The notes under the pieces: generated by a model
Seen by the model: only the letters and a program-made list of their open reading frames with translations
Told to the model about the DNA's origin: nothing
Databases searched by the model: none
Made by a program: the position numbers and the translations under genes
Origin: a virus
DNA length: 31,484 nucleotides
IMG/VR virus record: IMGVR_UViG_3300050821_001673
Location: 1-31,484 of that record
Direction: 5' to 3' (one strand)
Shown here: positions 1 to 10,791 of the stretch, piece after piece
Layout: every line of letters begins with the position of its first letter
Numbering within the stretch: the first letter of the stretch is position 1

Positions 1-2
1 CG

Positions 3-449
3 AACTTGAGAGGCGCGGACTTGAGAGGCGCGGACTTGTACGGCGCGAACTTGAGCGGTGCGAACTTGAGAGGCGCGGACTTGTACGGCGCGAACTTGTA
101 CGGCGCGAACTTGAGCGGTGCGAACTTGAGCGGCGCGAACTTGAGCGGCGCGGACTTGAGCGGCGTGGACTTGTACGGCAAGAAAGTTCGTTCTATGTAC
201 GTCTTCTCAGGGCTTTACCGTTACATTGTGCAGGCTGTCATCTTCGAAGACGGTTCACAGTGGATTCGCATGGGTTGCTTGTTCCACAGCTTGGAAGATT
301 GGGATAAGATGGGTATTCGTAAAAGTAATCTTAGCGAATACCCAGCTGACGGCTCTGAGAAATGTGAAGAGCGCGTAGCGGCGTTTGAATTTGCTAAAGC
401 GCATTTGCTTAGAAAGGCGGCGCAAAGTGAACCCCGACCTGTTGCTTGA
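3..449 (+). CDS. Pentapeptide-repeat protein, 5'-truncated by window edge
   Basis: The reading frame is open to the left edge, so the true start lies outside the window; the first possible in-window start is a TTG at 6. About the first 58 visible residues are pentapeptide repeats of the form A(N/D)L(S/Y/R)G, which fold as a right-handed quadrilateral beta-helix. The last ~90 residues form a separate non-repeat domain with alternating hydrophobic strands (around [15 protein letters not shown]) and a helical end. I recall this C-terminal domain from other phage pentapeptide proteins, with no assigned function. Some pentapeptide proteins mimic DNA and inhibit gyrase, but nothing here proves that role. 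The 15-nt DNA repeats are almost identical to each other, which suggests recent expansion or conversion. Confidence 0.8.
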
Positions 450-2819: not shown

Positions 2820-4634
2820 ATGAAAAACGCAAACGTAACGTCCGCCGCTGCCCACACCACTACCGAAGTCCTGAAGAGCGGTGTAGTGATCGAAACCAAG
2901 TACGCCAACCGTCCCACCGCTGCCAAGCCGATGACGTCCATCCTGGACGCACTGAACGGTAACGGCCATAAGGTAGCAGCGATGCAGCAGGCTTCCGGCC
3001 CGGTTACTTCGTCGTACGTGAAGAACGGCAACGGTAAGAAGCCTGTGCACCTAACCGTAGAAGAAGCGCAGAAGTTGACCGATAAGAGCCGCGCTAAGAA
3101 CGCCGCTGAGAAATGCCAACATCTACGCGCTGACGAAGCCAGCGGTAAGTGCACAGATTGCGGCGCGCAATTGTACGACCCGAAGCCAGCACCGAAGGTT
3201 AAGGTGGCGAAGTCCGTCGATCCCCGCACCCACCCGTACCACGCCGCGCTGGATAAGGCGGGCTTCGTATTCGTTCAGGCGCAGGGCGCTGCTCTCGGCT
3301 ACCAAAACGCCGACGGGCGTGCCGCGCTGGTGAACGGGGAGGCTTGGTCGGTCCTTCTCCCTGGCGGAGCGTCCAAGGACTCCGGTGAGTCGCTTAAATC
3401 GCTCAAGGAGACGCTCCTGAAGCCGTCGGTCCCGGCCCACGTGGTCAAGGTGATCGCGATGCTGGGCGGATACACTCTCCAGCGCTACAAGCTGGACGGG
3501 CTGGGCGGCGACGCCAAGTACGCCACCCGCGTCAAGCTGCTGAAGGTTCTCCGTAAGACGGACAAGGTTCTGGTCAAGGGCAGCGATCTCCCTACGCTGC
3601 GTAAGGAGCTCTTTGCCGCTGTAGGCGCGAAGGACGCCGCCGATTTCATCGGGCGCGCTAAGGCCATCGCCCTGGCGGACCGCACTATCAAGGCGCAGGC
3701 CAAGAAGGACGAAGAGGAGCTCATCACGCGCGCCAAGCGCGCTAGCCTGCCCGAGCGCACCGTACCCGGCGAAATCCTGGACGTGGAGCCCCGCCTCAGC
3801 AATAAGAAGCGTGCTGCAAAGGACGCCGCCGACATGGACGCGCTCAAGGCGGAGTTGGCTGCGCCGAAGAAGGAAGCCGCAGCGCCTGGGCCCAGGGCGT
3901 CGTTCACAGAGCCGAAGAAGGCTACGTTAGTATTGGCCTCCGTGGAAGGCTCCGAGGAGCGCGCTGCTAAGGGTACGGTCCCCGCGCCGCAGCACCGGGC
4001 GGAGGACATTCTCCTCCTGGAAGATACGCGTACCGGGCTTGTAATTCTCCGGCTGGAACGCCCAAATTCACAAGGCGCGATTTGCGTGTATAATAACGGT
4101 AACAGAGTTGCTTGCGGTCTCGTTGAGACGGAGACCCTTAGTCACTTCCGTAAGATTGAAGGCGCAGACGTTCCGACGGCTGCACGAGAGTTACTTCACC
4201 CCATCATCTCGGGTGTCGTCGTAACGCCAGTGGCAGAACGCCACCTAACCGCAGTCCTGAACTGCAAGGAGCTCATCATGGCCGCTACCGCCGTTGTAAC
4301 ACCGAAGTTCGCCGCACCCGCTTCCAAGACAACCACTAAGGCACCCAAGCCCGTCAAGGCAGCGAAGCCCGCCAAGGCCGAGAAGCCTGCCAAGGCAAAG
4401 AAAGAAGCCGCTGCACCCGCCGCTGACCGCAAGATCAAGGCGCTCATCAAGGCCAAGGACGTTACGCTGCGCGAGGGAACGTTCTGCTACGCGCAAGTGA
4501 TGGCCGCTGTGGGCGGAGCCAAGACGGTAGCCGAAGCGCAGGCCGTGCTGGACAAGGATAAGAACAACCCGTCCAAGGGTCGCAAGCTGGAAGTCGCGTG
4601 GTTGAGCAAGAAGGGCTTCATCAGCGTAGCGTAA
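2820..4634 (+). CDS. Large Ala/Lys-rich protein with zinc-ribbon-like and histone H1-like segments
   Basis: A 604-aa product starting at ATG 2820 after AGAAAGGA. Around residues 100-120 is a possible zinc site (CQHLRADEASGKCTDCG). Residues ~290-370 are highly charged. Residues ~505-535 are a Pro/Ala/Lys tract (KAPKPVKAAKPAKAEKPAKA) like histone H1 tails. The final ~70 residues (KIKALIKAKDVTLREGTF ... AWLSKKGFISV) resemble a small DNA-binding-like domain seen at the end of other phage proteins of this type. Nucleic-acid binding is likely but not proven. A strong ribosome site (AAGGAG 4266-4271) precedes an in-frame ATG at 4278, so a second, 118-aa product covering the H1-like tail is possible. 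Confidence 0.75.
   Translation: MKNANVTSAAAHTTTEVLKSGVVIETKYANRPTAAKPMTSILDALNGNGHKVAAMQQASGPVTSSYVKNGNGKKPVHLTVEEAQKLTDKSRAKNAAEKCQHLRADEASGKCTDCGAQLYDPKPAPKVKVAKSVDPRTHPYHAALDKAGFVFVQAQGAALGYQNADGRAALVNGEAWSVLLPGGASKDSGESLKSLKETLLKPSVPAHVVKVIAMLGGYTLQRYKLDGLGGDAKYATRVKLLKVLRKTDKVLVKGSDLPTLRKELFAAVGAKDAADFIGRAKAIALADRTIKAQAKKDEEELITRAKRASLPERTVPGEILDVEPRLSNKKRAAKDAADMDALKAELAAPKKEAAAPGPRASFTEPKKATLVLASVEGSEERAAKGTVPAPQHRAEDILLLEDTRTGLVILRLERPNSQGAICVYNNGNRVACGLVETETLSHFRKIEGADVPTAARELLHPIISGVVVTPVAERHLTAVLNCKELIMAATAVVTPKFAAPASKTTTKAPKPVKAAKPAKAEKPAKAKKEAAAPAADRKIKALIKAKDVTLREGTFCYAQVMAAVGGAKTVAEAQAVLDKDKNNPSKGRKLEVAWLSKKGFISVA
4278..4634 (+). CDS. Possible internal-start product (118 aa) of the Ala/Lys-rich gene
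   Basis: AAGGAG at 4266-4271 lies six bases before an in-frame ATG, giving MAATAVVTPKF followed by the Lys/Pro/Ala tract and the C-terminal domain. This would be a small basic nucleoid-type protein made from the same message. An alternative is that two once-separate genes fused here. The evidence is only the ribosome site and the change in composition at this point. Confidence 0.35.
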   Translation: MAATAVVTPKFAAPASKTTTKAPKPVKAAKPAKAEKPAKAKKEAAAPAADRKIKALIKAKDVTLREGTFCYAQVMAAVGGAKTVAEAQAVLDKDKNNPSKGRKLEVAWLSKKGFISVA

Positions 4635-4670
4635 CACAACGACGGAGCAAGACGAATTCAGCGAAGTAAA

Positions 4671-4697
4671 GCGCCCGCCTGAACCTGAGGCGGGCGC
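4671..4697 (+). repeat. GC-rich hairpin between transcription units
   Basis: GCGCCCGCCT (4671-4680) and AGGCGGGCGC (4688-4697) pair perfectly around a 7-nt loop in the 84-nt gap before the glycosyltransferase gene. No T-run follows on either strand. It could be a weak or factor-dependent terminator, or an RNA stability element for the upstream message. Confidence 0.65.
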
Positions 4698-4718
4698 ACC
4701 ACGTAAGGAGGAACTCTG

Positions 4719-5567
4719 TTGCAGAACGTTACGCTAGTAATTCCCACCCATGGCCGCGTCGGCCGCCAAATCACCCTCCAGGCTCTCCCCGTAGCCCTTC
4801 AGAGCGAAGCTATACTTGTGGCGTCGCTTCCTGAAGAAGCCAAGGCGCTTCGCTCCCTGTACCCTGACAACGAGTTGCTAGTGGCGCGCGGTGTAAAGTC
4901 CATAGCCGAGAAGCGCCATTGGATCATGCAGAACGTCAAGGGTCACATGGTGTTCATGATGGACGACGATCTGGCCTTCTTCCAGCGGTGCCCGCCACGG
5001 TGGCGCGTGTGGGAGGAAGAGCGCGGAGCCTACGCGCTGAAGCCGGGCGCTCCGGCCGGTTCAGCCCTGATGACGCGGCTGTATCCGCAAGACGCCGCCC
5101 TGCTACGCCTGTTCCAGGACCTGGACAAGCGTATGACCACCCACGATCCAGCCATGCTAGGCATCGCCCATCGCCGTCACAGTGATAAGCAGAAAGAATC
5201 GTGGGCTGTTAACGGGCGGATGATGTATGCATTCGGTGTGAATCCGGATGTGTACAAGCGGCTGAAGGTGAAGTTCACCGCCGTAGCGCTACGCGAAGAC
5301 TTCCACGTCGTGCTCAGCATCCTACGCGCCGGAGGCCAGGGCCACTCCTACGTGGAACTACTGAACAACGAATACGGAAGCTTCGGCGCGGCGGGCGGAT
5401 GCAGCGCCGAACGTAGTATGGAGTTCAGCGACGCGCAGTGCTTCGTACTACAGAAGCTTCACCCGCAGTTCGTCAAGGTAGTAGACCGAGCCTACAAAGG
5501 CTCCATACCGCGCAAGGAAGTGGTCGTATCTTGGAAGAAGGCTTACCAGTCCAGCAAGGAGAAGTGA
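4719..5567 (+). CDS. TET-associated-type glycosyltransferase (TAGT)
   Basis: A 282-aa GT-A-fold glycosyltransferase. It begins at TTG 4719 behind a strong TAAGGAGG (4704-4711). Visible motifs are the N-terminal nucleotide-binding strand LVIPTHGRVGRQ (residues 6-17), a metal-binding DDD in MVFMMDDDLAFF (82-84), NGRMMYAFG (165-173), an EDF motif (193-195) before VVLSILRAGG, and GAAGGCS (223-229). This motif order matches the TAGT family predicted by Iyer, Aravind and colleagues to glycosylate 5-hydroxymethylpyrimidines in phage DNA, usually next to TET/JBP oxygenases. Here the neighbours are a donor-making kinase and nucleotidyltransferase and a thymidylate synthase homologue instead. The sugar and the target base are inferred, not seen. 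Confidence 0.82.
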   Translation: MQNVTLVIPTHGRVGRQITLQALPVALQSEAILVASLPEEAKALRSLYPDNELLVARGVKSIAEKRHWIMQNVKGHMVFMMDDDLAFFQRCPPRWRVWEEERGAYALKPGAPAGSALMTRLYPQDAALLRLFQDLDKRMTTHDPAMLGIAHRRHSDKQKESWAVNGRMMYAFGVNPDVYKRLKVKFTAVALREDFHVVLSILRAGGQGHSYVELLNNEYGSFGAAGGCSAERSMEFSDAQCFVLQKLHPQFVKVVDRAYKGSIPRKEVVVSWKKAYQSSKEK

Positions 5568-6301
5568 TGATTACTGAACCATTTCGTCGTAATTCTGGGG
5601 CTCTTCTAGAGCCATGCGTGCGCAAGTCTGGCTTAGGATGTTATCAACAAGGTGTGAAGATGCAGAAGTATCCAGGCATATTTGCTCCAGTGTGGACTGC
5701 TGATTACACTACTGATTCGTACGTCATGCCGGCTCTTCAGGAGCCAGTTATACCTTACGATTATGTCACGGCATTTGCAAAGCTGAAAGCACTGTGGGAG
5801 GCTGGCGTGCAGCATGTGCCAGAACCACTGAGTAGACGCGAACGGCATCACAGAGAACAGGTAGAACCACTAGCCACCAATGAACTAGCCGAAGCACTGT
5901 CGTATTGGTGGAGCGCGGTGCGTAGCTTGGACGGCCTTACGGTGCACGCCGTGCACGGTGATCCTACGCTGGAAAACATCATGTCCTACAACGCACACGC
6001 AGTATGGATAGATCCAAGTACGCGAACGACTCCATTGGAAGCGGAATTCGACGCCGCCAAGATTTTACAGTCAGTGTTCGGGTACGACAGGCTGAACAAC
6101 GACGAAGCACATGATGGCCATCGACAGGCAATAAAGTTCGTACAAGATCTAAACATTGATTGGAGTTTAACAGGTTACTATCTCGTAACGCACCTTGTAC
6201 GCTTGTACAAAGTACAGCCGCAAGCCCGCGCGTGGGCCGTCGACCTAGCTCTACACCTTGAAGAAAGAATGGAGGAACTGCGATGCAAGTCGTTATTCTA
6301 G
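5567..6301 (+). CDS. APH/choline-kinase-like small-molecule phosphotransferase
   Basis: The ATG at 5567 overlaps the glycosyltransferase stop by one base (TGATG), with AAGGAGAAG just upstream. The 244-aa product carries the Brenner motif HGDPTLENI (residues 130-138: catalytic D132, N137) followed by the metal-binding VWIDPS (D149), typical of aminoglycoside phosphotransferase and choline/sugar kinase folds. The N-lobe is short. Its place between a glycosyltransferase and a nucleotidyltransferase suggests that it phosphorylates the sugar or alcohol that is later activated and attached to DNA; antibiotic resistance is unlikely in this context. The first part of the gene is more A+T-rich than its neighbours. 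The substrate is unknown. Confidence 0.7.
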   Translation: MITEPFRRNSGALLEPCVRKSGLGCYQQGVKMQKYPGIFAPVWTADYTTDSYVMPALQEPVIPYDYVTAFAKLKALWEAGVQHVPEPLSRRERHHREQVEPLATNELAEALSYWWSAVRSLDGLTVHAVHGDPTLENIMSYNAHAVWIDPSTRTTPLEAEFDAAKILQSVFGYDRLNNDEAHDGHRQAIKFVQDLNIDWSLTGYYLVTHLVRLYKVQPQARAWAVDLALHLEERMEELRCKSLF

Positions 6302-7017
6302 CCGCCGGAAGCGGCAAGCGGTTCACGGACGCTGGTTACAGGAAGCCCAAACCGCTCATACAGGCGCGCGGGCGCGCTATGGTTGAATACGCGCTGGAAG
6401 CGGCATCGTTCATAACGGATCAGCCAATCGTGGTGTGTACGTGGGGAATCGTAGGACCTCTGTACGGGCTTGCGCCTGCTGGGGTCGTTCCTAGGCTAAT
6501 TCCAGTAAGACACCTGCAGAGCGGCGCAGCTATGAGCCTGCTTGCGGCCGCAGCTGCGCTCGACGAAATGCAGCCCGTCATGACCATGGACTGCGACAGC
6601 ATTATCCCACCCAGCATGCTGTCGCAGTTCGCCGCCTGGAGCGTGGAAGCGTTCGCCGCCGGATACAGTTCCACCGTGATGACGTTCACACCCGCCGACG
6701 ACAGTGCTCGCTACAGCTTTGTACGGCTAGTGCAGACGCCTGACTCGCGGTTCCCCGCCGTGGTGGAGATCAAGGAGAAGTTGCGCATAAGCGACGTGGC
6801 CACTTGCGGTGCGCACGTGTTCAGTTCCTGGGCGGAGCTACGGCGTGCTATAGCGGCCATGGTGTACCGCGACGCACGCGTAAACGGAGAGTACTACATG
6901 GCTCCGGTGCATCGCTACGTAGAACGTACTACGGCGGCAATGCACGTGACGGACTTCACCTGCATCGGTACTCCGGAAGAACTGGAGGCGTATGAGCAAG
7001 CGGTTCCCATTACTTAA
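6283..7017 (+). CDS. Sugar-phosphate nucleotidyltransferase-like protein
   Basis: A 244-aa NTP-transferase of the GT-A-like nucleotidyltransferase family. The N-terminus VVILAAGSGKRF (3-14) is the nucleotide-binding signature, KPKPL (21-25) holds the catalytic Lys pair, and MDCDSI (102-107) contains the metal-binding Asp pair. Such enzymes join NTP and a sugar-1-phosphate (or phosphocholine) to give NDP-sugar or CDP-choline and pyrophosphate. The ATG at 6283 follows GGAGGAACTGCG and overlaps the kinase gene by 19 nt, so the two are translated together. With the kinase upstream it would supply the activated donor for the TAGT enzyme. Which nucleotide and sugar are used cannot be read from the sequence. 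Confidence 0.8.
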   Translation: MQVVILAAGSGKRFTDAGYRKPKPLIQARGRAMVEYALEAASFITDQPIVVCTWGIVGPLYGLAPAGVVPRLIPVRHLQSGAAMSLLAAAAALDEMQPVMTMDCDSIIPPSMLSQFAAWSVEAFAAGYSSTVMTFTPADDSARYSFVRLVQTPDSRFPAVVEIKEKLRISDVATCGAHVFSSWAELRRAIAAMVYRDARVNGEYYMAPVHRYVERTTAAMHVTDFTCIGTPEELEAYEQAVPIT

Positions 7018-7858
7018 GGAGTTTGCCGCATTCATCACGGAAAGGCAGCATATACACGAGTTGCGCTGCATAGGCGCGGAGCCGCCGTGGACGAAGGATG
7101 AGATACTGCGTACTTACCGGTTCACGAATGTCAGGAGAGAGGACGACCGCGTAACTCGGTGGATTCACAAAGAGTGGGTAGCGCCAAACGAGCATGACGG
7201 CGACCGGTTAGTATTCGCCATGTGCCTAGCTCGGCTGGTGAACTTGCCAGCTACGCTAGCGCTGCTAGATTACCCCATGAAGTGGGACGCCGCACGATTC
7301 GTACGTATCATGGACAAGGTGCGCGCGAGCGGTAATTGCGCCTACAACAATGCATACATGATAAACGCCGTGGGAGCTACTAAAGGTCAGAGCAAGGCTT
7401 CTTACTTGGCAGAGTGCGTACTTACACCGATGTGGAAGCAGCGTAGTTTACTACAAGGCAAGCTTACGCTACGCGAGCTTCACGAGCAACTCTTGACGTT
7501 CCACGGTTTCGGCGGTGGCTTCATGGCAGCGCAAGTCGTAGCCGATGTGAAGTGGGCTCCAGCTTGGCGCGTTGCGCCGGACTGGCACACGTTCGCTTGT
7601 AGTGGCCCGGGAAGTAGGCGCGGGCTAGGGTGGCTTTGCTTCAAGGAGCCGACGCTGCGCTGGAATGAGGCGGTGTGGCAGAGCACGTTGGTGCAGCTAC
7701 GCGGTGAACTAATGCCGCTGTTGCCGGCTGCGCTGCAGGACTTGGATGCTCAGAATTTACAAAACGCATGCTGCGAATTCTCAAAATGGTGTAAAGTGAA
7801 GTATCTTGATAAGCGCGCAAAACAAAAGTTTAAACCTTCGGAGGAATCGTATGGGTAG
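6992..7858 (+). CDS. Alpha-glutamyl/putrescinyl thymine pyrophosphorylase-family (HMUDK_hel-like) protein
   Basis: A 288-aa product starting at ATG 6992 after TGGAGG, overlapping the previous gene by 26 nt. Key motifs are YRFTNVRREDDRVTRW (42-57), GFGGGFMAAQVVAD (172-185), DWHTFACSGPGSRRGL (197-212) and NLQNACCEFSKW (255-266). These define the helical, DNA-glycosylase-like family that occurs alone or fused to 5-hydroxymethyl-dU DNA kinases in phages with hypermodified thymidine. The proposed role is to act on 5-(pyrophosphoryl)methyl-dU in DNA and replace the leaving group with an amine or amino acid. No P-loop kinase domain is present here, so this copy would need a kinase from elsewhere. 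The last ~35 codons are more A+T-rich, like the adjoining HNH gene. Confidence 0.75.
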   Translation: MSKRFPLLKEFAAFITERQHIHELRCIGAEPPWTKDEILRTYRFTNVRREDDRVTRWIHKEWVAPNEHDGDRLVFAMCLARLVNLPATLALLDYPMKWDAARFVRIMDKVRASGNCAYNNAYMINAVGATKGQSKASYLAECVLTPMWKQRSLLQGKLTLRELHEQLLTFHGFGGGFMAAQVVADVKWAPAWRVAPDWHTFACSGPGSRRGLGWLCFKEPTLRWNEAVWQSTLVQLRGELMPLLPAALQDLDAQNLQNACCEFSKWCKVKYLDKRAKQKFKPSEESYG

Positions 7859-8474
7859 ACCAAAGAAGACTGTCGAAGAGTACATGACTGAAACTGTACG
7901 CATAGGTAAGTGTCGCCTGCACAAGAATAGCGTGGCGAGACATGTTTATCAACTGCGTCACGGTCTTGTTCCAAGGACGCTCTGCGTTTGCCACACATGC
8001 GACCGAGGCAATTGTCTCACAGATAAACACCACTTTCTAGGCACGCACGGTGCTAACGTAGCTGATGCCATTAAGAAAGGACGCATGGCAGGACCAGAAT
8101 GGCGCGCCGCTGTCAGTGCGCGCGTAAAAGAACAGCATAAAGCAAAGAAATTCGGCAGACACACTTGGTCTGAATCTACTAAGAAGTATGTTGCTGCTAA
8201 GGTCGGCGAAGCTTTACGTGGGAGAACTGGCCCACAGCATCCTTGTTACGGTCGTAAAGCTTCGCCAGAACAACGTGAGCATTATCGTCAGGCAGCTTTA
8301 GAAAGAGAACGTAAACGTCGTACAGGTGAACTACCAACTTACAAGCATTGGGCTAACGGCACTAAGTGGAAAGAAACCACAAGAAACAAGATTGCCGTTG
8401 CTAAAGCGGCCACAAAGAAACGTCGCCACGAAGAAAGCATTGATGAATACTTCTTTCAGACAAGGAGCAAATGA
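7851..8474 (+). CDS. HNH homing endonuclease with NUMOD-like C-terminus
   Basis: The ATG at 7851 follows CGGAGG and overlaps the upstream stop by 8 nt. The 207-aa product has an N-terminal MGRPKKT segment, then an HNH-type nuclease domain with VCHTCDRGNCLTDKHHFLGT (residues ~45-64), where HTCD and the CxxxxHH supply the zinc and catalytic ligands. The C-terminal half has short repeats such as HTWSESTKK, GRKASPEQREHY and WANGTKWKET, like NUMOD3 DNA-binding motifs. Free-standing homing endonucleases often sit beside thymidylate synthase genes, as here. The gene is clearly more A+T-rich than its neighbours, which supports recent arrival. Confidence 0.82.
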   Translation: MGRPKKTVEEYMTETVRIGKCRLHKNSVARHVYQLRHGLVPRTLCVCHTCDRGNCLTDKHHFLGTHGANVADAIKKGRMAGPEWRAAVSARVKEQHKAKKFGRHTWSESTKKYVAAKVGEALRGRTGPQHPCYGRKASPEQREHYRQAALERERKRRTGELPTYKHWANGTKWKETTRNKIAVAKAATKKRRHEESIDEYFFQTRSK

Positions 8475-8475
8475 G

Positions 8476-9528
8476 ATGTTCAGCTTTACTGCCAACTCAG
8501 TCAACGACGCACTACGCAAGGGCCTCCGCCACTTACTTGACGACGGCGTCGTGGAAGACAGCCGCAACGGGCCAGTGCTTGTAGCGCCTGGCCCTGTATG
8601 TACGGAGTACGTGAACCCGCGTGCCCGTGTGCTTTACTCGCCCACCAGGGATGCCAACCCGTTCTTCCATCTCTTCGAGTCTTTGTGGATGCTCTCCGGA
8701 GCCAACGACATTGAATTCCCTTGCTACTTCGCCAAGTCATACGGTCAGTACAGCGACGACGGCAAGACTATGTGGGACGCTTACGGCTACAGGTGGCGGC
8801 AGTTCTTCGGCTGGGATCAGCTTGAGGCGCTCGTAACAGAGCTCAAAGCGAATCCAGCTTCCAGGCGCTGCGTGCTGGCTATGTGGAACGCGGGCAGCTT
8901 ACTTAACAGAAACGGTCAGTCCGTAGACGGGCCAATCAAAGATGATTTCTTCGTGGCTACGAACGGCGGCAAGGCCGTGCCGTGCAACACGCACGCATAC
9001 TTCGACCTACGCTACGGCGTGCTGAATATGACGGTCTGTAACCGCAGTAACGACGCTGTTTTCGGCTGCTACGGAGCCAATGCCGTACACTTCAGCTTCC
9101 TACAGGAGTACGCAGCCGCGCGTGTAGGCGCGCCCGTGGGCGTGTACCGCCAGTTCAGTAACAATCTGCACATGTACACTGATGTGCACAGTCGCGCTTG
9201 GGCTGAGCAAGTCATTACGGAATCCGACGTAAAGGAGGACTACACCGACTGCCCGCCCATTAGCGGTGGATTTGATGAAGACCTCAAGATATTCATGATC
9301 TGGGCTCGCGAAGTTATACGCGGTGAACAGAAGCCGGGCGACATGCTCAGTCTGTACGTGCCCGACATGAAGACCAACCTGATGGGCGACGTGGCCGTGC
9401 CCATGTTCCTAGCTTGGTACTACCGTAAACAGAAGGACGAGTATTCCATGAACATCTGCCTGGACGGCATTGATGCGCCGGACTGGCAGAAGGCTTGCCG
9501 TGAGTGGGTTGAACGGAGGCGTAAGTGA
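8476..9528 (+). CDS. Thymidylate synthase homologue, probable dUMP hydroxymethyltransferase
   Basis: A 350-aa protein from ATG 8476, after AAGGAG (8463-8468). It keeps the TS core: FESLWMLSGAND (67-78), the phosphate-binding Arg pair in ASRRCVLAMWN (128-138), catalytic Cys170 in VPCNTHAYF, Arg190/Ser191/Asp193 in NRSND, Asn202 in GANAVHFS, and NLHMY (230-234). The Asn at the N177 position points to dUMP, because dCMP hydroxymethylases carry Asp there. It lacks the standard APVAI-type C-terminus and has a ~100-residue extension of its own. Next to DNA-thymine modification genes, TS homologues of this type usually make 5-hydroxymethyl-dUMP, using methylene-THF and water. True dTMP synthesis cannot be excluded from sequence alone. 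Confidence 0.82.
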   Translation: MFSFTANSVNDALRKGLRHLLDDGVVEDSRNGPVLVAPGPVCTEYVNPRARVLYSPTRDANPFFHLFESLWMLSGANDIEFPCYFAKSYGQYSDDGKTMWDAYGYRWRQFFGWDQLEALVTELKANPASRRCVLAMWNAGSLLNRNGQSVDGPIKDDFFVATNGGKAVPCNTHAYFDLRYGVLNMTVCNRSNDAVFGCYGANAVHFSFLQEYAAARVGAPVGVYRQFSNNLHMYTDVHSRAWAEQVITESDVKEDYTDCPPISGGFDEDLKIFMIWAREVIRGEQKPGDMLSLYVPDMKTNLMGDVAVPMFLAWYYRKQKDEYSMNICLDGIDAPDWQKACREWVERRRK

Positions 9529-9746
9529 GGATTACGTTGTTGACAGTTCTAAAACAAATCGACATTGCTGAACGCCGCTACATGGCTGAAATTCAATCCA
9601 TCATCAAAGCCAGCGGATTTTGTTTTGATTTATACGAAGATCGTGATGTTGGCAGAGCCTATTGCAGGCTTGGCAGTGGGCACGTAGGACCGCATAAAAG
9701 TAGCTACCTTGAATGGACGGGAACACACCAATGGAGGCGTAAGTGA
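9525..9746 (+). CDS. Small Cys/His protein, 73 aa
   Basis: It starts at GTG 9525, overlapping the TS stop as GTGA, with GGAGG six bases upstream. A helical N-terminus (LLTVLKQIDIAERRYMAEIQ) is followed by a C-terminal segment CRLGSGHVGPHKSS...TW. The C-x-GH-x-GPH pattern recurs in many small phage proteins and looks like a zinc site. I know of no assigned function. Both ends of the gene carry the same 14-nt junction (GGAGGCGTAAGTGA), so it may be a cassette inserted between the TS and HD genes. Confidence 0.65.
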   Translation: MRITLLTVLKQIDIAERRYMAEIQSIIKASGFCFDLYEDRDVGRAYCRLGSGHVGPHKSSYLEWTGTHQWRRK

Positions 9747-10321
9747 ACGCAACGGAGAAATGGCTTTACTTCTTAATGGAAGGCGCACAGGTTGTGCGCT
9801 TCCATTCGCGGCCTACGTTGAAGCCGATAACCGACGGACAGCACCAGCACGGAGTGGCGCTTATCTGCTGGTTTCTCAGTAACGGAAAGCCCAGCGCCAA
9901 CCTGCTCATGGCCGCGTTGACGCACGACCAAGCTGAACAAGCCGCTAGCGACATGTCCAGCCCGGCCAAGTGGGCTCTTGGGCTGAGTAAGGTGCTGGCC
10001 GCGTACGAACAGTCGCACCTCACAATGCAGGGCTTCCACGAATGGGCTGAGCTGACGGAGGAAGAATCGGAGATACTCAACTGGGCCGACCAGTTTGAAG
10101 GTATGCTTAGTTGCGTCCGTGAGCGCTTCCTAGGCAATCGCTACGTGAATCTAAGTTACTGGAAGTGGCGCGGGTGGGCGGAGGCGCAATCCATGTCCGT
10201 AGTTGCGCATGAACTCTACAGCGCCATCCACAAGATGTGGCTCTGGGCCGATAGCAACGAAGCACCAATATTCGACGTGTTCAAGGAGGTTCCACAACAT
10301 CATGTCAAGACCGAAGGGTAG
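9743..10321 (+). CDS. YfbR-like HD-domain nucleotidase
   Basis: A 192-aa protein from GTG 9743, GTGA-coupled to the preceding gene. The HD metal site is visible: HQHG (H34/H36), the HD pair in ALTHDQAEQAASDMSSPAKW (H61, D62, with D70 in the YfbR-like SDMSSPAK turn), and a later Asp in NWADQFEGML. This order is that of 5'-deoxynucleotidases such as YfbR and of the phage dATP hydrolase DatZ. In an operon for a modified thymine it could remove dTMP/dTTP or another nucleotide that competes with the modified precursor, or supply dUMP. The substrate is inferred; the fold assignment is fairly firm. Confidence 0.72.
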   Translation: MNATEKWLYFLMEGAQVVRFHSRPTLKPITDGQHQHGVALICWFLSNGKPSANLLMAALTHDQAEQAASDMSSPAKWALGLSKVLAAYEQSHLTMQGFHEWAELTEEESEILNWADQFEGMLSCVRERFLGNRYVNLSYWKWRGWAEAQSMSVVAHELYSAIHKMWLWADSNEAPIFDVFKEVPQHHVKTEG

Positions 10322-10679
10322 TAAGAACAAACGAAAACCCACGCCTACGCAATTACGTAAAGTAGAGGCGCGTGTTGAAGAACTGATAACGCTGCCAGCG
10401 CCGCACGAGATAACTCTGAAGGACAAACTCAGAGCGTCGCTCGCTGTAACGCCAGCCAACGAAGTCCAGGTAGGCGGTACGCACTATCAGGCCGGAGCCG
10501 GGTGCTGCCCGCACTGCGGTAACAAGCTACAGCACTGGGACATCGTAGCTATGTTCGGGATGGATTACTTCATCGGTAACGCGACCAAGTATCTGTTCCG
10601 ATTCACACTCAAAGACGGCGCGGAAGGGCTGCGTAAGGCCGTCCATTACATTAACAAGAAACTAGAGCTGATGAAATGA
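10302..10679 (+). CDS. DUF3310 protein with basic N-terminus and CxxC insert
   Basis: I start this at ATG 10302, 12 bases after AAGGAGG (10283-10289); the longer frame from 10203 is antisense-like sequence inside the HD gene. The 125-aa product begins MSRPKGSKNKRKPT, an AT-hook-like basic stretch, and ends in a DUF3310 domain (VQVGGTHYQAG, QHWDIVAMFGMDYFIGNATK, YLFRF, KDGAEGLRKAVHYINKKLEL). DUF3310 is often labelled a nucleotide kinase in phages without direct proof. A short CCPHCG sequence inserted between GGTHYQAG and QHWD looks like part of a zinc knuckle. It is the last sizeable gene of the plus-strand block. Confidence 0.8.
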   Translation: MSRPKGSKNKRKPTPTQLRKVEARVEELITLPAPHEITLKDKLRASLAVTPANEVQVGGTHYQAGAGCCPHCGNKLQHWDIVAMFGMDYFIGNATKYLFRFTLKDGAEGLRKAVHYINKKLELMK

Positions 10680-10741: not shown

Positions 10742-10791
10742 AAAGAGCCCGCCGCACGACCCATCCCCGAAGGATAGGCCGCGCGGCGGGC
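10740..10791 (-). terminator. Intrinsic terminator of the late operon
   Basis: GCCCGCCGC (10747-10755) pairs with GCGGCGGGC (10783-10791), with an inner ATCC/GGAT stem. Read on the minus strand, the hairpin is followed by TC and five T residues. It lies just past the endolysin stop and between convergent gene blocks. On the plus strand it has no T-run, so it is mainly a minus-strand terminator. Confidence 0.85.

Follow-up and report, generated by a model that had tools for sequence, protein, structure and literature searches.

In the IMG/VR virus record IMGVR_UViG_3300050821_001673, a fragment of 31,484 bases that was analysed over its whole length and is called the window here, we examined an operon that brings together a TAGT-family glycosyltransferase, a protein of the HMUDK_hel family and a homologue of thymidylate synthase (TS). 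The operon consists of nine coupled open reading frames (ORFs) on the plus strand (4719-10679), most neighbours being joined by start/stop overlaps of 1-26 bp (Table 1). All nine genes listed in the initial annotation are indeed present as ORFs on one strand, and families could be assigned to most of them; proteins were assigned mainly according to Pfam and PHROGs profile matches. The minus strand of the window carries tail and head genes (tail sheath, baseplate and major head protein).

Table 1. Features of the operon and its surroundings in the window
Feature	Position	Strand	Evidence or remark
TAGT-family GT-A glycosyltransferase	4719..5567	+	PF20691, phrog_842; start TTG behind AAGGAGG
APH-fold small-molecule kinase, likely first step of donor synthesis	5567..6301	+	motifs, predicted structure
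Sugar-1-phosphate-type nucleotidyltransferase (NTase), likely second step of donor synthesis	6283..7017	+	PF12804, PF00483
HMUDK_hel ("aGPT-Pplase1"), proposed recognition partner for 5-hydroxymethyldeoxyuridine (5-hmdU) in DNA	6992..7858	+	PF18723
HNH endonuclease, probable free-standing homing gene	7851..8474	+	phrog_1872 endonuclease, 8.8e-13
TS-family pyrimidine hydroxymethylase, predicted dUMP type	8476..9528	+	PF00303
73-aa ORF, coupled to TS	9525..9746	+	weak phrog_20343 match; 4-bp overlaps with neighbours
HD-domain 5'-deoxynucleotidase-like protein	9743..10321	+	YfbR-like, 6.1e-5 (below the Pfam cut-off); phrog_6047, 1.8e-25
DUF3310 protein	10302..10679	+	PF11753, 1.7e-5; same spot in all close relatives
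604-aa Lys/Ala-rich protein of no known family, Cys pair motif	2820..4634	+	directly upstream of the operon
Pentapeptide-repeat-like protein	1..449		contig start lies within it; NLSGANL-type repeats in the first 180 bases
Perfect 10-bp GC-rich hairpin	4671..4697		possibly a terminator or attenuator
Strong 20-bp hairpin with T-tail	10747..10791	-	between operon and convergent lysis/structural genes

The glycosyltransferase matches PF20691 with an E-value of 1.7e-13 (51.4 bits at a curated cut-off of 27.5) and phrog_842, "beta-glucosyl-HMC-alpha-glucosyltransferase", with 4.6e-38. Its GT-A DxD site (D82-D84) is invariant in eight homologues, and a profile search yielded no solved relative by sequence. 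TET/JBP oxygenases (PF12851) gave no match in 53 records, in a search in which no positive control matched either and which we do not take to show that they are missing. That a TAGT occurs without TET had been taken for a novelty, which does not hold up, as solitary TAGTs (lacking alpha-GT or beta-GT) are common, being present in 288/753 phage genomes (PMC13216743).

The TS homologue matches PF00303 (Thymidylat_synt, E 5.8e-16), but its nearest solved protein, far above any thymidylate synthase, is the CMP 5-hydroxymethylase MilA (1.1e-17). In this family, Asn versus Asp at the base-reading position distinguishes dUMP from dCMP enzymes. The catalytic Cys is C170, and N202 lines up with the Asp of MilA; the Asp found at the base-reading position of dCMP/CMP hydroxymethylases is thus replaced by Asn202 in the window and in ten homologues, and both Asn202 and Cys170 are unchanged in 10/10 aligned phage homologues. 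The window protein is ~40-44% identical to the homologue of M6-type phages and ~25% identical to that of phage LC53. M6-like phages bear thymines derived from 5-hmdU, and M6, ViI and phiW-14 are thought to share a 5-hmdU intermediate (PMC6449724). Owing to Asn202, the kinship with MilA and the likeness to the M6-type enzyme, 5-hydroxymethyl-dU is most likely the intermediate produced by the TS homologue. The dUMP-type synthase postulated for the operon in the initial annotation agrees with all of these features: family, Cys170 and Asn202.

HMUDK_hel is recognised by PF18723 (E 5.8e-38; 131.3 bits at a curated cut-off of 25), a family that Pfam names the helical domain of 5-hmdU DNA kinase and that phage annotations call aGPT-Pplase1. 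Its profile search, too, returned no solved relative by sequence. With the AlphaFold model (pLDDT 93), Foldseek found nothing significant, the best match being DUF2419 at E 0.87. In VIA-align, the top 38 rows all belonged to the helix-hairpin-helix (HhH) DNA glycosylase superfamily (Z 6.0-10.5, suggestive only at this size for helical proteins), before values fell to Z 4.1; DUF2419 and the PaMx11 glycinyltransferase 8z2n (Z 10.3) were among the structural matches. We accept an HhH DNA-glycosylase-like fold, as suggested by the model, because the list is so uniform and not because of the height of the Z values. Since this fold is that of HhH DNA glycosylases and the PaMx11 glycinyltransferase, "pyrophosphorylase" appears to be a misnomer, and the aGPT-PPlase identity given to the protein at the outset is not supported. 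The family of proven amino-acid transferases, aGPT3 (8z2m/25qc), is missing: no aGPT3-class amino acid:DNA transferase was matched in the pieces of records G001-G003 or in any TAGT locus, while the positive control, phage AN14, matched PDB 25qc/8z2m.

A TAGT scan of viral contigs returned seven loci, all with TAGT, kinase, NTase, HMUDK_hel, TS, HD and DUF3310 genes in tandem. The gene order is repeated in L007/L013, L008 and L009-L012, with proteins that are 37-74% identical one by one, and it is present in L120 as well. Within the clade it is kept by three or more further phages (records of 69-101 kb). Since the order recurs in independent contigs, the association of these genes is not due to chance. 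TAGT, HMUDK_hel, the dUMP-type TS homologue and the kinase/NTase pair belong together, as had been supposed. A further minimal version of the TAGT/TS/HMUDK_hel core is found in L023, a 33.5-kb contig, where positions 4170-8939 encode TAGT, an ATP-dependent DNA ligase-like protein, TS, HD, a DUF3310-like protein and HMUDK_hel, followed by a PolA-like protein. In genome contigs the TAGT scan gave one contig only. In contig L268 (7588-10718), which was binned with a Methylobacter metagenome-assembled genome, TAGT, HMUDK_hel, TS and HD follow each other consecutively, a hint that one such phage infects a methanotroph. As the longest relatives measure 100 and 101 kb, the window probably represents part of a phage genome of about that length. 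The 101-kb record (G003) encodes DNA polymerase A, a ligase, a dCTP deaminase-like protein, a 5'-nucleotidase and an inorganic pyrophosphatase; these extra genes fit a supply of dUMP and prove nothing.

To see which genes accompany HMUDK_hel, loci were collected in three ways: via HMUDK_hel, via TAGT, and via the P-loop kinase of M6-like phages. Each search contributed at most its best 80 loci, seeded from HMUDK_hel-linked sequences and mostly from fragment records, with near-duplicates included; T-even-type TAGTs lie outside these sets. The kinase alignment used (A8) corresponds to PF18748, 5-hmdU DNA kinase; in an M6-like phage, both hit one and the same gene. Loci found through HMUDK_hel contained TAGT in 65 cases, the kinase in 6, neither in 3 and both in none. 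Starting from TAGT, HMUDK_hel was present in 63/68 loci and the kinase in 0; starting from the kinase, HMUDK_hel was present in 69/80 and TAGT in 0. In whole records, for which positive controls matched, TAGT was absent from all 40 kinase records and the kinase from all 40 TAGT-group records. Thus, across ~230 loci HMUDK_hel pairs with TAGT or with the P-loop kinase, never with both. TS is found in 139/143 TAGT loci. Placed on a tree, 106 non-redundant HMUDK_hel proteins (58 with kinase, 44 with TAGT, 4 with neither) require at least ~12 changes of partner, compared with 34-35 for shuffled labels. Residues invariant over the HMUDK_hel alignment (A7) are common to both partner types, and no single ORF was found in which HMUDK_hel is fused to the kinase or to TAGT. 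The search for a P-loop 5-hmdU DNA kinase that the initial annotation had suggested was negative: neither PF18748 nor A8 matched in records G000-G003, no such kinase being present in the window, itself a fragment, or in the 69-101 kb relatives, and M6-like controls were matched. L149 has two distinct HMUDK_hel genes (3986-5032 and 9150-9995), one of which branches among the kinase-partnered rows, beside a TAGT with donor genes. Seven loci of the kinase branch (L225, L247, L248, L254, L257, L258 and L263) carry two P-loop kinases plus TS, HMUDK_hel not being detected.

The two genes between TAGT and HMUDK_hel look like a pathway for making a sugar donor. The window copy of the kinase has no Pfam match but contains HGDPTLEN and IDP motifs, and its K20, H130-G-D132-x-T-x-x-N137 and D149 (the N-lobe Lys, HGDxxxxN and the metal-binding Asp) are invariant in 12 relatives. 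Its AlphaFold model (pLDDT 88.8) matches APH(4)-Ia with Z 13.8, and further structural matches are maltokinase (E 1.4e-5), glucosamine kinase, fructosamine-3-kinase (FN3K) and the choline kinase LicA. Judged from the model, it is an APH-fold small-molecule kinase that groups with sugar kinases. By sequence, the NTase is of the sugar-1-phosphate nucleotidyltransferase type: it matches PF12804 (NTP_transf_3, MobA-like; 2.4e-11) and PF00483 (1.5e-5), conserves G-x-G-x-R-F and D103-C-D105, and in profile searches hits the NDP-sugar pyrophosphorylase 4evw (1.5e-12) and GlmU (2.8e-8). Of 143 TAGT loci, 15 have both genes and another 2 have only the kinase, whereas the pair is present in 0/88 loci of the kinase branch. 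The pair is spread over about six branches of the HMUDK_hel tree. Beyond the window clade it recurs in L121, L122, L124, L125/L126, L149 and L180; in five records (L122, L124, L125, L126 and L149) a HAD gene lies between kinase and NTase. L122 (7215-9930) has TAGT with kinase, HAD and NTase, and neither HMUDK_hel nor TS in 18 kb; TAGT may have another acceptor there, or the locus may be split.

BLAST found a single phage protein related to the kinase, an NTase-kinase fusion in Serratia phage LC53 whose second half is the matching part and which adjoins an arabinose-5-phosphate (Ara5P) isomerase gene. The RB69 protein ORF53_52c resembles it in length and in the type of locus, and it may serve to supply UDP-arabinose (PMC6024577). 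The NTase half of the LC53 fusion has no recognisable likeness to the window NTase, and the HAD phosphatase and Ara5P isomerase of other donor cassettes were not found in the records of the window clade; for these reasons arabinose is only a lead, and it was not retained as the specific sugar. Relatives of the NTase in cyanophages were also considered as a clue to a role in DNA and set aside, as they sit in surface-sugar-like clusters that are uninformative on DNA.

The HNH gene is another matter. No copy of it lies between HMUDK_hel and TS in L007-L012; as this position is empty in every relative, we regard the gene as an insertion outside the pathway, probably a homing endonuclease of the free-standing type that has settled among the modification genes. 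The nine-gene system of the initial annotation is therefore confirmed as a set of genes but not with respect to membership of HNH. A gene for an HNH protein 40% identical to that of the window is located at a different site in L009 (3164-3577). The 604-aa protein has copies, 38-42% identical, upstream of TAGT in L007, L008 and L009-L012, the loci that reach that far. Between its gene and the operon, just upstream of the TAGT ribosome-binding site, lies the GC-rich hairpin listed in Table 1. Promoter and terminator scans of the window gave results no better than those for shuffled sequence.

Based on these data we propose the following route. The TS homologue would convert dUMP to 5-hydroxymethyl-dUMP and the HD protein would trim competing normal pyrimidine nucleotides, so that 5-hydroxymethyluracil could enter the phage DNA during replication. 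Once the DNA has been copied, HMUDK_hel would engage the 5-hmdU of the duplex and so allow TAGT to attach a sugar to its hydroxyl. For the donor, the APH-fold kinase would act on a small sugar or polyol, and the NTase would turn the phosphorylated product into an NDP-donor for TAGT. We consider it reasonably probable that a sugar-bearing 5-hydroxymethyluracil in phage DNA, made in this way, is the product of the operon. Beyond the window, HMUDK_hel may be a general 5-hmdU reader that is plugged either into the kinase (amino-acid route) or into TAGT (giving base-J-like glycosyl-hydroxymethyluracil), the window's clade and several other lineages activating an unusual sugar themselves by means of an APH-fold kinase and NTase; this wider proposal is put forward tentatively.

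Some observations weigh against the proposed route. The TAGT of T6 acts on glucosyl-hydroxymethylcytosine (PMC13216743), so that hydroxymethyluracil as its acceptor is an extrapolation. HMUDK_hel is absent from 5/68 TAGT-found loci, some of them through a contig end, and the Manatee Spring phage MW202897, a whole circular record, has TAGT, TS and HD but no HMUDK_hel, from which it follows that HMUDK_hel is not always needed. Moreover, APH kinases use many substrates other than sugars, so that the donor may be of another type.

This last point bears on a rather unlikely variant in which kinase and NTase decorate the DNA-bound sugar afterwards, or make a CDP-choline or CDP-polyol donor, the final base being phosphodiester-linked. 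The APH fold takes in LicA, which in bacteria is paired with an NTase, and thymines of the SP-15 type bear phosphate- and sugar-containing groups. SP-15 has a carbohydrate gene cluster (PMC5977210), and the LC53 fusion that holds the sole phage relative of the kinase belongs to an arabinosylation locus whose route has not been worked out (PMC13390438). On the other hand, the NTase profile fits NDP-sugar pyrophosphorylases and GlmU, the donor pair tracks TAGT and never the kinase branch, and the HAD gene inserted in several loci resembles sugar-1-phosphate routes. The arabinosylation loci also suggest that the TS homologue might produce 5-hydroxy-dUMP, with the sugar placed directly on a ring hydroxyl, the arrangement that Mosigvirus has in its arabinosylated cytosines: a TS-family enzyme there yields 5-hydroxy-dCMP (PMC13390438), and in the arabinosylation-type locus the kinase/NTase cassette adjoins a TS-family gene. 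With an identity of ~44% to the M6-type enzyme as opposed to ~25% to the LC53 homologue, and with HMUDK_hel otherwise tied to 5-hmdU pathways, we find this very unlikely.

It is also quite unlikely that HMUDK_hel is the transferase itself or that, together with the APH-fold kinase, it substitutes for the 5-hmdU DNA kinase, thymine being phosphorylated or displaced and TAGT acting elsewhere. A second HhH-fold family (aGPT3/PUGT, PDB 8z2n), the one aligning with HMUDK_hel at Z 10.3, is a true transferase on modified thymine; however, LuckyBarnes (see below), L023 and most TAGT loci lack the APH kinase, which is therefore not the general partner of HMUDK_hel. Finally, TAGT and the donor pair could act on a protein or cell-surface glycan, with TS, HD and HMUDK_hel as a separate, adjacent nucleotide function. 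The closest phage NTases do sit in glycosyltransferase clusters devoid of annotated DNA-modification genes, but the overlap of the genes and the presence of TS in nearly all TAGT loci make this highly improbable.

The locus, with its predicted transfer of a sugar to 5-hmdU, can be compared with several known systems. The M6-like/PaMx11-like Pseudomonas pathway (represented here by AN14 and AIIMS-Plu-RaNi) shares the TS-family dUMP-type hydroxymethylase, HMUDK_hel, HD, whose homologue adjoins TS there too, and a DUF3310-like gene next to DNA polymerase. These phages add the P-loop kinase (PF18748), an amino acid:DNA transferase and pyridoxal phosphate (PLP) or radical-SAM enzymes, whereas the window clade lacks the M6-type kinase and transferase and has TAGT with kinase and NTase in their place. 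In the cultured Brevibacterium phage LuckyBarnes, the four neighbouring genes gp38-gp41 encode TS, two copies of TAGT and HMUDK_hel, like the core of the window, but there is no donor pair and no adjacent HD match, the proteins being ~25-29% identical to those of the window. In pelagiphages, TS, aG/PT-PPlase1, a nucleotidase and a TAGT-like glucosyltransferase near PolA were noted in 2022 and interpreted as thymidine hypermodification of the M6-like type, with neither a donor pair nor a partner-switch rule described (PMC9599517). As LuckyBarnes and the pelagiphages have it, the core of TS, HMUDK_hel and TAGT is not unique to the window, and the combination is not the first of its kind as had initially been claimed. 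The T6/T2 TAGTs are of the same Pfam family (PF20691), the T6 enzyme putting a second glucose on glucosyl-hydroxymethylcytosine (PMC13216743); in the window, unlike there, the route to the base is predicted to be of dUMP type and the donor probably comes from phage genes. Loci of the RB69/LC53 arabinosylation type have a fused NTase and APH-type kinase plus an isomerase (PMC6024577, PMC13390438), but differ in their cytosine base, GT-B arabinosyltransferase and Ara5P isomerase. The predicted product, a sugar on 5-hydroxymethyluracil, falls into the same class as kinetoplastid base J (beta-glucosyl-hydroxymethyluracil). To form base J, JBP oxygenases act on thymine that is already in DNA and a separate glucosyltransferase completes the synthesis, whereas here the hydroxymethyl group would arise at the nucleotide level.

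What is new, then, is the mutual exclusion of kinase and TAGT and the restriction of the donor pair to TAGT loci. We found no prior statement of either, of a functional coupling of HMUDK_hel and TAGT, or of a donor pair of kinase and NTase accompanying them, in the literature searched, although earlier mention in Lee 2018, Lee 2022 or Iyer 2013 is possible; nor, as far as we found in that literature, has phage DNA with the predicted kind of sugar-thymine been described. The partner-switch rule assigns a testable role to the poorly understood HMUDK_hel, and it allows the branch to which a phage belongs to be predicted from gene content. If our proposal is correct, a large set of environmental phages would have a sugar-bearing hydroxymethyluracil in place of some of their thymine, forming a branch of hypermodification apart from the amino-acid branch and chemically near base J. 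Modified bases of this type would be relevant to restriction, Cas and glycosylase defences, and the transferase pairs might become tools for labelling hydroxymethyluracil in DNA.

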